Positions 48,461 through 51,059 of a stretch of 51,310 bases of DNA are shown in pieces (positions within the stretch are counted from its first letter, which is position 1; each line of letters starts with the position of its first letter). A program made the position numbers and the translations under genes. The stretch covers positions 1 through 51,310 of the forward strand of contig JAFASY010000011.1 in assembly GCA_019244235.1 (NCBI GenBank), given 5' to 3'. Below the pieces are notes generated by a model that did not search any database, was not told where the DNA came from, and was given only the letters and a program-made list of their open reading frames with translations. Origin of the DNA: Chroococcidiopsidaceae cyanobacterium CP_BM_ER_R8_30 (GTDB taxonomy: Bacteria; Cyanobacteriota; Cyanobacteriia; Cyanobacteriales; Chroococcidiopsidaceae).

Positions 48461-48637
48461 GCTCTTGCATTATAATGAAAGCTTTCTAAGATTGCTATCA
48501 GATTTCTCTGCTTATTGGGTAGCGACGTCCGCTATATATCCCCTCCACGGTCATTTTGTTTTAGTACCGCTTGCCCATTGGTACTTATTGATAGTATTTC
48601 TTGCTTCTCAATAACTTGAGCTACGGCTACATTGAAG

Positions 48638-48683
48638 AAGTTAACGTTCTCCCAAAGGTTCCCTCGTTTGAGAACGTTGACTC
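48638..48683. repeat. imperfect palindrome with GGTTCCCTC loop
   Basis: GTTAACGTTCTC and GAGAACGTTGAC pair with one mismatch around a loop containing AAGGTTCCCTC. The same GGTTCCCTC core lies inside the inverted repeat near 2738-2767 and (as GGAGGTTCC) in the block at 24270, so it may be a further palindrome family. No T-run follows. Confidence 0.5.
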
Positions 48684-48691
48684 AATGCTTT

Positions 48692-48826
48692 AAACATCTA
48701 ACTTGAAAAATGCCAAAACAAGATTGTTAGAAACATAAGAATCTGACGAAACGTTGCAAGAATCTGAAAGAAGTCAAGGATTGGAACTCAATACACTTTA
48801 GACGGAACCAGGAGAATCCAATACGG
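48692..48826 (+). promoter_or_regulatory. duplicated promoter/leader, copy A
   Basis: About 135 bp that aligns with copy B (49122-49256) along almost its full length. It contains two AAGAATCTGA boxes (48737-48746 and 48758-48767, 21 bp start to start), AAAG, then TTGGAACT, a -10-like TACACT at 48792-48797 exactly 24 bp after the second box, and ACCAGGAGAATCCAAT at the end. The boxes at two helical turns fit binding by a dimeric activator in place of a -35 element. It lies 5' of the 59-aa gene. Function is inference from layout. Confidence 0.55.
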
Positions 48827-48882
48827 ATTTATCTTCGTAATGACTCTATTTATCCCAAGCACCTTAAGCATATAAAAACGTC

Positions 48883-49062
48883 ATGACTCGACATCAAAAG
48901 TCACAAATCTATATCTTTGCTAAACGGATTGGCATTGCTTTAGCACTGACTGCCATTCTCTACTTCGTTCAGTGCAACAATTCTTTCTCACTCCATTCCA
49001 TTCCTAGCTCCGGCTTTACCAAAGAAGGAGTTACTCACCTGTTTAGTAGCAAGAAATGGTGA
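48883..49062 (+). CDS. 59-aa membrane-anchored small protein
   Basis: ATG at 48883, TGA ending 49062. The protein starts MTRHQKSQIYIFAKR, then has one hydrophobic segment (IGIALALTAILYFVQC, residues 16-31) and a polar Ser-rich tail ending SSKKW. The Cys after the hydrophobic run is placed as in a lipoprotein-like or simple anchor. It is just shorter than common gene-length cut-offs. It lies behind promoter/leader copy A. No strong ribosome binding site is seen. Function unknown. Confidence 0.5.
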   Translation: MTRHQKSQIYIFAKRIGIALALTAILYFVQCNNSFSLHSIPSSGFTKEGVTHLFSSKKW

Positions 49063-49366
49063 ACATCCAAGCCCTGCTCATTCAGAGACTTCTAGTCAAA
49101 GCTATCTGACATAAAGCTTCAAACGCCTAACTAACTTGACACCAGAGCGGGTTTGCTAGAACCATAAGAATCTGATAAATTGTCGTAAGAATCTGAAAGT
49201 AGTCAAGCATTGGAACTTAGTATACTTCAGATAGCTAGAACCAGGAGAATCTAATGCATACAGTATAGGATATGGAGCAGTCTAAGACTGCTCAGCCAAG
49301 GCAATACACTATGAGGAGATTTTAAAGAACGGCAAGTATTACTTTCAATTTTTAGGAGCAACAATC
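49063..49366. other. intergenic region between the 59-aa and 115-aa genes
   Basis: Its 304 bp consist mainly of promoter/leader copy B and about 110 bp of downstream leader. Nothing else is recognised. Confidence 0.4.
49122..49256 (+). promoter_or_regulatory. duplicated promoter/leader, copy B
   Basis: Copy of the element at 48692. Two AAGAATCTGA boxes at 49166-49175 and 49187-49196 keep the 21-bp spacing, and the -10-like TATACT (49221-49226) again starts 24 bp after the second box. The end ACCAGGAGAATCTAATG forms a ribosome binding site plus ATG opening a four-codon frame (MHTV), perhaps the relic of an ancestral start. Lies 5' of the 115-aa gene. Confidence 0.55.
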
Positions 49367-49714
49367 ATGAAAAGTTTAGTTCCTCGCTTAGAGACTTCAC
49401 CTTTTGGTCTTGTATCTCTTGCTTATCAAGGTGGCTTATCCCGACAAGGTATTCCGAGTCATGGAGATCTAATTACAGCTCATCGTCACCAACAACTTGG
49501 TGCTTTAGATCTTATCTTGAGTGCAGTGAAAGTTAATCGGCTCTCATCTGATTTCCTGACTAACCAAGAGTATCTGCAAGCAGTTGAAAACGGTTTTTTG
49601 TTCTATTACCTATCACACCCCAAAGTTAAATCGGCTTTCTCAATCAAAAAAATATTATGTAGGCTTGGGTGCCTAGGAACACAAGCTATTTCTTTACTCC
49701 TACTTTCCAACTAG
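49367..49714 (+). CDS. conserved-looking cyanobacterial small protein, 115 aa
   Basis: ATG at 49367 with AGGAG 9 bp upstream. Residues 1-75 (MKSLVPRLETSPFGLVSLAYQG, IPSHGDLITAHRHQQLGALDLILSA, NRLSSDFLTNQEYLQAVENG) look like a compact helical domain of a cyanobacterial family of unknown role. The remaining 40 residues (FLFYYLSHPKVKSAFSIKKI and LGCLGTQAISLLLLSN) are hydrophobic/basic and could be a changed tail. Behind promoter/leader copy B and 120 bp before the acetolactate decarboxylase, so it may be co-transcribed with it. Confidence 0.55.
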   Translation: MKSLVPRLETSPFGLVSLAYQGGLSRQGIPSHGDLITAHRHQQLGALDLILSAVKVNRLSSDFLTNQEYLQAVENGFLFYYLSHPKVKSAFSIKKILCRLGCLGTQAISLLLLSN

Positions 49715-49834
49715 TTATAGCCTCCTCCAATAATAGCTATTCAGTCCTAGTTTCTTTGTCAGCATTTTCGATCTTTAAAGTTGGTTGTCTTGTAGAAACA
49801 GTATCAGCAGAAAGTTCTGTACCAGGAGAAGCTA

Positions 49835-50593
49835 ATGAACCTAAAATGGTATTTATGGATTGCGGTGTGTCTGATTGCCCTTCTAGTAAGTGTCTTACCT
49901 GTCTACTCTCAACAATTTCTCCAGTCTCATACAGGATTCCAGATTTCTACCTTGGGAGCCTTAAACGTTGGAGTGTATCAGGGAGCCACAACGATAGCAG
50001 AGCTTAAACCTCATGGAGACTTTGGACTGGGAACTCTTGAGAAATTAGATGGAGAGATGGTGATTCTTGATGGCAAGTTTTATCAGATCAAAACCGATGG
50101 TGTTGCCTATCCCGTCACAGATAATTCTAAAACACCATTTTCTGCTGTCACATTTTTTCGCAGAGAGCGATCGCTGCATTTGACTGGAAAAATGACTTAT
50201 CAGGAATTGGAACAGCAAATCGACAAACAGTTGCCAACATCAAACTTACCCTATGCAATTCGCTTACGAGGGACTTTTCCCTCCTTGAAAGTGAGGAGTG
50301 TTCCCAAACAAATACCGCCTTATAGCCCGTTAAACGATGTAGTGAGTCAGCAGGAGGTTGTTTTTGACTTGCAAAACGTGTCAGGTACATTAGTGGGATT
50401 TCGCCTGCCACAATATCTCAAGGAGGTGAACGTAGCAGGCTATCACCTTCATTTCCTGACAAGCAATCGCAAAGCAGGAGGGCACCTGCTTGATGGAGCA
50501 TTTCTTAACCCTGTAGTTGATGTGCAAACCTTGCAAGACTGGCAGATCATGTTGCCCAATAATACGGCTTTTGACCAAGCATCGCTGGAATAG
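49835..50593 (+). CDS. acetolactate decarboxylase with N-terminal signal peptide
   Basis: 252 aa. The family is clear: STLGALNVGVYQGATTIAELKPHGDFGLGTLEKLDGEMVILDG, PFSAVTFF, YAIRLRGTFPSLKVRSVPKQ, LVGFRLPQYL and the zinc site GYHLHFLTSNRKAGGH with three His. It splits off CO2 from 2-acetolactate to give acetoin. Residues 1-25 (MNLKWYLWIAVCLIALLVSVLPVYSQ) form a signal peptide ending VYSQ, so the enzyme should be exported, as in Brevibacillus; many others are cytoplasmic. ATG with AGGAG upstream. No acetolactate synthase or butanediol dehydrogenase adjoins. Followed by transposase remnants. Confidence 0.9.
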   Translation: MNLKWYLWIAVCLIALLVSVLPVYSQQFLQSHTGFQISTLGALNVGVYQGATTIAELKPHGDFGLGTLEKLDGEMVILDGKFYQIKTDGVAYPVTDNSKTPFSAVTFFRRERSLHLTGKMTYQELEQQIDKQLPTSNLPYAIRLRGTFPSLKVRSVPKQIPPYSPLNDVVSQQEVVFDLQNVSGTLVGFRLPQYLKEVNVAGYHLHFLTSNRKAGGHLLDGAFLNPVVDVQTLQDWQIMLPNNTAFDQASLE

Positions 50594-50614: not shown

Positions 50615-51059
50615 TCAAACTGAGTGAGCACATTCATAGTTGTAGAGTGCAGCAATCAGATTACAACGCAAGCCAAAGCGACGACGACGGTTGCGGTAAC
50701 GTTCGCCGAGAATGCGGAAGATTTTTAAGCAACGGTTGACTTGCTCAATCACCACACGGCGACGAGCTAAAGCGCGATTGTCTGCCTTTTGCACCGACGT
50801 CAGTTGCCCGCCTCTTGGCTTTTTGTACGGTAAACGACTGTTGGCATGCAACTTCTGGATGCCTTGATACCCTTTATCCTGCAAACTTTCGGTAAAAGGT
50901 GCAAAACGCACTCCAGAAGCTTGATAGAGCTTGAAGTCATGTCGTCGCCCTTTGCCAAAAAAGGTGCAAATAATCAGGCCACTGTCCCACTCCAGCACAA
51001 TCTGACACTCTTTGGGTGTGCCGTTTCTTTTTACCCGAATATCCCTCTTCTGTCACTTT
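50615..51059 (-). pseudogene. IS5-family transposase, 5'-truncated and frameshifted
   Basis: The minus strand encodes the DDE_Tnp_4-like C-terminus: VLEWDSGLIICTFFGKGRRHDFKLYQ, DKGYQGIQKLHANSRLPYKKPRGG, then ARRRVVIEQVNRCLKIFRIL with the catalytic Glu, ending NLIAALYNYE. Upstream the sequence EEGYSGKKKRH is in a different frame: one extra C in the CCC at 51014-51016 breaks it. The N-terminal half of the enzyme is missing. Remnant of an IS; terminal repeats were not found by eye. Confidence 0.75.

Follow-up and report, generated by a model that had tools for sequence, protein, structure and literature searches.

What are the two related segments near the end of the window, the 51,310-nt stretch of DNA analysed here (contig C57 of a 5.54-Mb draft genome), and where did they come from? 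The earlier note had described them as a duplicated promoter/leader with paired boxes. Our comparisons suggested that each segment is probably an operator-promoter activated by an AraC-family protein, duplicated in the window, with the araC gene itself lost save for its last codons. The elements of the two copies were as follows (the nhmmer E values come from a profile built from 124 sites, both window sites among them):

48734 to 48806, forward strand: copy 1 of the putative operator-promoter module of about 70 bp (nhmmer E 3e-19)
48737 to 48746, forward strand: copy 1 distal half-site (box 1), from the pattern search
48758 to 48767, forward strand: copy 1 proximal half-site (box 2), from the pattern search
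48777 to 48790: AGCATTGGAACTCA block of copy 1, +40 to +53 from the start of box 1
48792 to 48797, forward strand: -10-like TACACT of copy 1, 24 nt 3' of box 2
48807 to 48816, forward strand: ribosome-binding-site-like ACCAGGAGAA 3' of copy 1, start codon broken (AATACGG)
49162 to 49238, forward strand: copy 2 of the putative operator-promoter module (nhmmer E 4.3e-22)
49166 to 49175, forward strand: copy 2 distal half-site (box 1), from the pattern search
49187 to 49196, forward strand: copy 2 proximal half-site (box 2), from the pattern search
49206 to 49219: AGCATTGGAACTCA block of copy 2, at the same distance from box 1
49221 to 49226, forward strand: -10-like TATACT of copy 2, 24 nt 3' of box 2
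49240 to 49249, forward strand: ribosome-binding-site-like ACCAGGAGAA 3' of copy 2, then a 4-codon ORF (ATG CAT ACA GTA TAG)

Both copies carried the box AAGAATCTGA twice, 21 bp start to start, and the box pairs, their spacing, the -10-like hexamers and the 24-nt distance were all found exactly where the earlier note had placed them. The ACCAGGAGAA that was said to end each segment was present after both copies, but its distance from the -10 varied (9 nt and 13 nt). At the corresponding place other module copies had AGGAGAATCCAA(C)ATG. A third ACCAGGAGAA (49821-49830) belonged to the acetolactate decarboxylase gene and resembled an ordinary ribosome-binding site. A repeat search of the window returned one direct repeat of 90 nt (48713-48802 and 49142-49231, identity 79%, offset 429). 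When up to 3 mismatches were allowed, the window held the paired pattern at these two copies and nowhere else, and shuffled sequences gave an expectation of 0.02. The single box was as common as chance: 5.8 matches were expected at up to 1 mismatch, and 7 were seen. Thus, the pair with its 21-bp period, and not the word itself, was the signal. No Rfam match to E 0.1 was found in 48600-49900, and a riboswitch or other Rfam leader was rejected.

The same module was found elsewhere in the genome. At up to 3 mismatches there were 14 pattern matches (none in the reversed control), 13 of which were alike in spacer and downstream sequence and were taken as full module copies; the remaining match, on contig C203, was unlike the others in both and was considered a chance match. 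All 13 full copies were outside predicted ORFs of at least 80 aa, and a same-strand ORF started within 400 nt of 11 of them, the exceptions being window copy 1 and the copy on C217. A 70-nt query revealed three further degenerate copies (C44:17785, C44:18127, and C96:9673), and in two of them the first half-site was largely or wholly gone. Modules with a single half-site, where the first box was gone and the rest was intact, were seen in L099 after 4258, in L136 after 3808, and at G000:C44:18127-18171.

Among the 388 genomes searched across the order, the bare box pair matched in 176, and many of these matches looked like coding repeats (e.g., in G023 and G185). Therefore, a stricter pattern was used order-wide, and it matched in 29 of the 388; a 31-nt pattern had been tried on the window's own genome before this search (reversed control 0 in that genome). 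From the order-wide genomes, the loci of AraC relatives and the own genome we gathered 146 distinct cyanobacterial sites, of which 124 were kept at up to 2 mismatches (13 from the own genome, 34 and 77 from other genomes) and 22 with 3-4 mismatches were left out. Conservation in the 124 sites spanned about 70 bp and dropped off on both flanks, with the consensus TAAGAATCTGAcAAAtcrtygTAAGAATCTGAAAGAAgtcgAGcATTGGAACTCAtTACACTtaaGATAG (lower case weak). The view that spacing was kept while the sequence between the boxes drifted was correct for the window copies, which differ there, but not across genomes, where this sequence was conserved (cAAAtcrtygT). The best TATAAT-like hexamer lay 24 nt 3' of box 2 in 87 of the 124 sites, and it was TACACT at that place in 69. 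Between the proximal half-site and the -10, AGCATTGGAACTCA was strongly conserved in the 124 sites for no evident reason.

The position of the sites relative to genes was that of a promoter. Namely, 107 of the 124 sites were outside ORFs of at least 80 aa and had an ORF on the same strand beginning no more than 400 nt away, in comparison to 9% of random positions. A distribution of the paired box inside genes, which the earlier note had named as the outcome that would speak against it, was absent: only 4 of the 124 sites were within such ORFs.

The neighbours of the module pointed to its origin. Using the 114-aa AraC protein of contig C44 as a query, we found 69 loci in genome contigs, and 62 of them (from Nostoc, Brasilonema, Calothrix, Nodosilinea, Leptolyngbyaceae, Phormidium, and others) were used for the analysis of adjacency, seven non-cyanobacterial matches (L147-L153) being left out; the loci from close strains were non-independent. 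The box adjoined the end of araC in 43 of the 62 loci with up to 3 mismatches, and in 1 of 62 in the reversed control. Of the 44 loci found with up to 5 mismatches, 43 had the module start 7-11 nt past the final HTH codon, and in one the distance was 23 nt. The araC stop codon was mostly a TAA just 5' of the box and at times a TAA within ATAAGAATC. No adjoining paired box was found at up to 5 mismatches in 18 of the 62 AraC relatives, at least 5 of which ran nearly straight into another gene. A SigJ promoter with the J-box of hormogonia had also been considered; the parts of the literature available to the search held nothing that matched it, and the araC adjacency made this reading needless.

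The geometry of the module was consistent with this neighbourhood. When the 62 loci were scanned over gaps of 0-40 with no preset spacing, gap 11 (equal to a period of 21 bp) stood out with 83 pairs. Gap 21 gave 25 pairs and gap 0 gave 21, no other gap exceeded 3, and the reversed control had none. We read gaps 0 and 21 as stemming from a putative third, weaker copy of the box, AAGAAgtcgA, directly 3' of box 2. This pattern implied half-sites of about 17-20 bp each (consensus AAGAATCTGAcAAAtca and AAGAATCTGAAAGAAgt, 21 bp apart), a length that one would expect if a monomer carrying two HTHs were bound. Since the -10 hexamer lay 24 nt 3' of box 2, the proximal half-site would be set against the -35 region.

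Some of the sites lacking an araC gene still carried its traces. An intact AraC HTH lay directly 5' of 53 of the 124 sites. Among the other 71 sites, 33 were preceded by sequence similar to the araC 3' end (DNA profile, empirical p <=0.01), where about 0.7 were expected, and 38 had no such sequence by the same measure. Both window copies belonged to the 33:

48677 to 48730, forward strand: decayed araC 3' end LTQCFKHLT*KMPKQDC*, ending 6 nt 5' of box 1 (DNA profile empirical p 0.00025)
49091 to 49159, forward strand: decayed araC 3' end SSQSYLT*SFKRLTNLTPERVC*, ending 6 nt 5' of box 1 (tblastn, query residues 93-113, 57% identity, E 6e-4)

Each window tail was read in a single frame with no indels, where the intact protein reads FSSQSHLNQQFKRFTGMTPKQVR, and the copy 1 fossil was translated in the frame of its intact relatives (QQFKRFTGMTPKQVR). 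In both tails the final stop was TAG, placed 6 nt 5' of the box. The common derived states of the two copies (the TAG stop and a TGY last codon) indicated that they were duplicates of each other. Thus, the upstream part of what had been called a leader was a pair of araC fossils: the duplicated promoter module was there, but the likeness 5' of the boxes was that of decayed coding sequence and not of a promoter. An inverted repeat (AGTTAACGTTCTC and GAGAACGTTGACT, window 48639-48682, 13-nt arms 18 nt apart) overlapped the start of the copy 1 fossil. In another genome, G065, a broken araC remnant was right 5' of the box. Such stubs may have been copied together with the operator, or whole araC modules may have decayed in place.

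Such decay raised the question of whether the window copies were themselves non-functional duplication relics of a lost araC module. Both upstream tails had decayed, copy 1 had lost its start codon, and copy 2 led to a 4-codon ORF, all of which would fit a relic; however, the four boxes were perfect and the -10 hexamers intact while the araC tail had decayed. This difference looks like selection on the module, and we regarded the copies as unlikely to be relics.

We also considered that the module was an att-like recombination or insertion site at the araC 3' end that gathers gene cassettes, with expression being secondary. Its location at a gene end, the mostly single orientation of arrayed copies and the persistence of araC tails were in keeping with this idea. 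Nevertheless, a -10 hexamer stood at a fixed distance with gene starts just downstream, the fossil tails started raggedly (at query residues 75 to 107) with no common boundary, and the ORF lists inspected showed no recombinase that regularly accompanied the module. Moreover, a flanking inverted repeat was seen around copy 2 alone (49084-49109 and 49227-49252, 73%) and was missing at copy 1. A recombination site was thus very improbable. A mobile promoter or MITE-like element with fixed ends was not supported either, given the ragged upstream ends and the lack of shared terminal inverted repeats.

The preferred reading, an AraC-activated operator-promoter, calls for an activator. The own genome kept two intact AraC members, both HTH-only: the C44 protein of 114 aa and a C96 protein within a 137-aa open frame, and the N-terminal ligand-binding/dimerisation domain was absent from both. 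The candidate activator matched HTH_AraC (PF00165, E 2.7e-27) and HTH_18 (PF12833, E 5.3e-25), which correspond to a C-terminal double HTH, as well as the solved structures of E. coli AraC, SoxS, Rob, and MarA. Many AraC relatives elsewhere were about 300 aa long; one of them (L103, 300 aa) likewise matched HTH_AraC/HTH_18, and two of about this length gave only sub-threshold matches to Cupin_6 (E 0.04-0.07). The protein was not a SoxS/MarA/Rob equivalog according to NCBIfam, since it scored 46 bits for SoxS against a cut-off of 174 and was also far below for Rob and RamA. A DsbA/thioredoxin_4-like gene adjoined the HTH-only araC (C44 and C96; L017:2498-3055, reverse strand; L021:8633-9190, forward strand) and recurred in many other cyanobacterial loci, mostly with short araC forms; its product is a possible redox partner of AraC.

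The box and the candidate activator occurred together: the box was present in 18 of the 19 genomes that had a close AraC (E <=1e-45), in comparison to 11 of 369 others (Fisher p 1.5e-22, a value that ignores phylogeny and is inflated by linkage). The 1e-45 cut was picked after the list was seen, and at 1e-36 the count was 20 of 24 genomes by hand. Because the operator adjoins araC, this association was partly physical linkage. Among the 11 box genomes with no close AraC, the match in G023 looked like a coding repeat, that in G018 was doubtful, and G107 and G073 had weaker or partial AraC relatives. In the other seven of the 388 genomes (G045, G161, G226, G065, G301, G353, and G369) the box was present and no close AraC relative was found. 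Their boxes may be either relics or sites bound by another protein. It is these orphan modules that weaken the AraC reading most, and because of them the identity of the activator is one that we infer.

The same seven genomes were an argument that the module was a promoter for another regulator or a special sigma factor, its nearness to araC being only a mark of the source from which it was copied; the conserved AGCATTGGAACTCA, which exceeds the needs of an AraC site, pointed in the same direction. On the other hand, two direct repeats of about 17 bp with a 21-bp period, ending about 18 nt before the -10, form the geometry of AraC, the box was present in nearly all close-AraC genomes, and the adjacency was position-exact. 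We therefore judged another regulator to be quite unlikely. The shared activator postulated by the earlier note gained indirect support, with an AraC-family protein as the candidate.

The ORFs that might be controlled in the window were the following:

48883 to 49062, forward strand: 59-aa ORF after copy 1, a doubtful gene
49367 to 49714, forward strand: 115-aa ORF, the likeliest copy 2 target, no Pfam or NCBIfam match
49835 to 50593, forward strand: alpha-acetolactate decarboxylase (PF03306, E 9.6e-79), probably outside the regulon

It had been proposed that the 59-aa and the 115-aa ORFs were co-regulated. The 115-aa ORF started 201 nt past the start of the copy 2 boxes, had a good ribosome-binding site (TAGGAGCAACAATCATG), and shared 51% identity over 65 residues with an ORF in L017; from the sequence, it was most likely the target in the window. 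The 59-aa ORF had no Pfam or NCBIfam match, no relative among the collected loci and no clear ribosome-binding site, and it may not be a gene. The suggested control of acetolactate decarboxylase was abandoned. A search of 30 genomes found the gene in 4; in G360, G174, and G197 the orthologues had no module in about 1.5 kb upstream, and in the window the gene had its own ribosome-binding site, with the 115-aa ORF in between. Just 3' of it there was a 127-aa DDE transposase ORF (PF13359, window 50615-50998, reverse strand).

Elsewhere, several families recurred among the first downstream ORFs. Pfam was run on 99 of 123 such ORFs (those shorter than 100 aa, with duplicate ends, from the window or from sites with more than 3 mismatches were left out), giving SnoaL_2 (16), SDR (9), alpha/beta hydrolase (8), cupin (7), Rce1-like (7), RidA (6), TetR (4), and GMC oxidoreductase (3). 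From these family names only, our guess is that the regulon handles reactive or foreign small molecules.

Taken together, we propose that an AraC-family activator would bind two direct-repeat half-sites 21 bp apart, with the second set against the -35 region of a promoter that has the -10 TACACT and no good -35, and would bring RNA polymerase to the downstream gene. In many cyanobacteria one AraC-family gene ends right at the operator, and its product is most likely the activator; the inducer, judged from the target enzymes alone, may be a small molecule of a reactive or foreign kind. A simple class II model leaves the conserved AGCATTGGAACTCA between box 2 and the -10 unexplained. The window copies would derive from an araC-operator arrangement by the loss of araC down to its last codons and by tandem duplication of the operator-promoter; since the window's araC tails are pseudogenes, any activation there must act in trans.

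A broader scenario, to which we give somewhat less than an even chance, is that a cyanobacterial AraC regulon has been growing by copying its own operator, with a stub of the regulator gene, ahead of unrelated enzyme genes. In the usual view, new members join a regulon when point mutations bring a sequence closer to a binding site or when regulator and target are transferred jointly. Sites labelled with their origin, the end of the activator gene, would offer a way to test regulon expansion, and if the scenario is true, the araC stubs record the origin of each new member. A further outcome is a 70-bp module that can be used in searches, along with a candidate activator for clusters of SnoaL-like, SDR, hydrolase, cupin, and RidA enzymes in many filamentous cyanobacteria; in the parts of the literature available to our search, we found no regulator for these clusters. 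Searches of the accessible part of the open-licence literature for the box word, for cyanobacterial AraC operators and for SnoaL/SDR with AraC returned no description of such a system.

The general kind of system is known, and what is unusual is the site at the regulator's stop codon together with the fossil stubs. At E. coli araBAD, I1-I2 consists of two direct-repeat half-sites of about 17 bp with a 21-bp period, the proximal one against a weak -35. The module resembled such AraC class II promoters in its direct repeats of about 17 bp on a 21-bp period, in a proximal half-site abutting the -35 at a fixed distance from the predicted -10, in its weak -35 and in the family of its proposed activator. 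It differed in half-site sequence, in the extra conserved block between the half-site and the -10, in an operator placed directly at the 3' end of the regulator gene and followed by a target of the same orientation, and in its many dispersed copies that carry fossils of the regulator gene. The SoxS/MarA/Rob regulons were similar in that the candidate activator of the own genome was HTH-only (114 aa) and the scattered targets looked like stress or detoxification enzymes. However, many relatives of the candidate were about 300 aa, the curated cut-offs were far from reached, and the site was double, whereas SoxS, MarA, and Rob use a single marbox. Finally, putative mobile promoters have reportedly propagated in prokaryotes as near-identical promoter stretches before unrelated genes of one genome. 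The module likewise formed near-identical stretches ahead of unrelated genes, but its ends were ragged and had no inverted repeats, and its source gene was still legible from the fossil tails.
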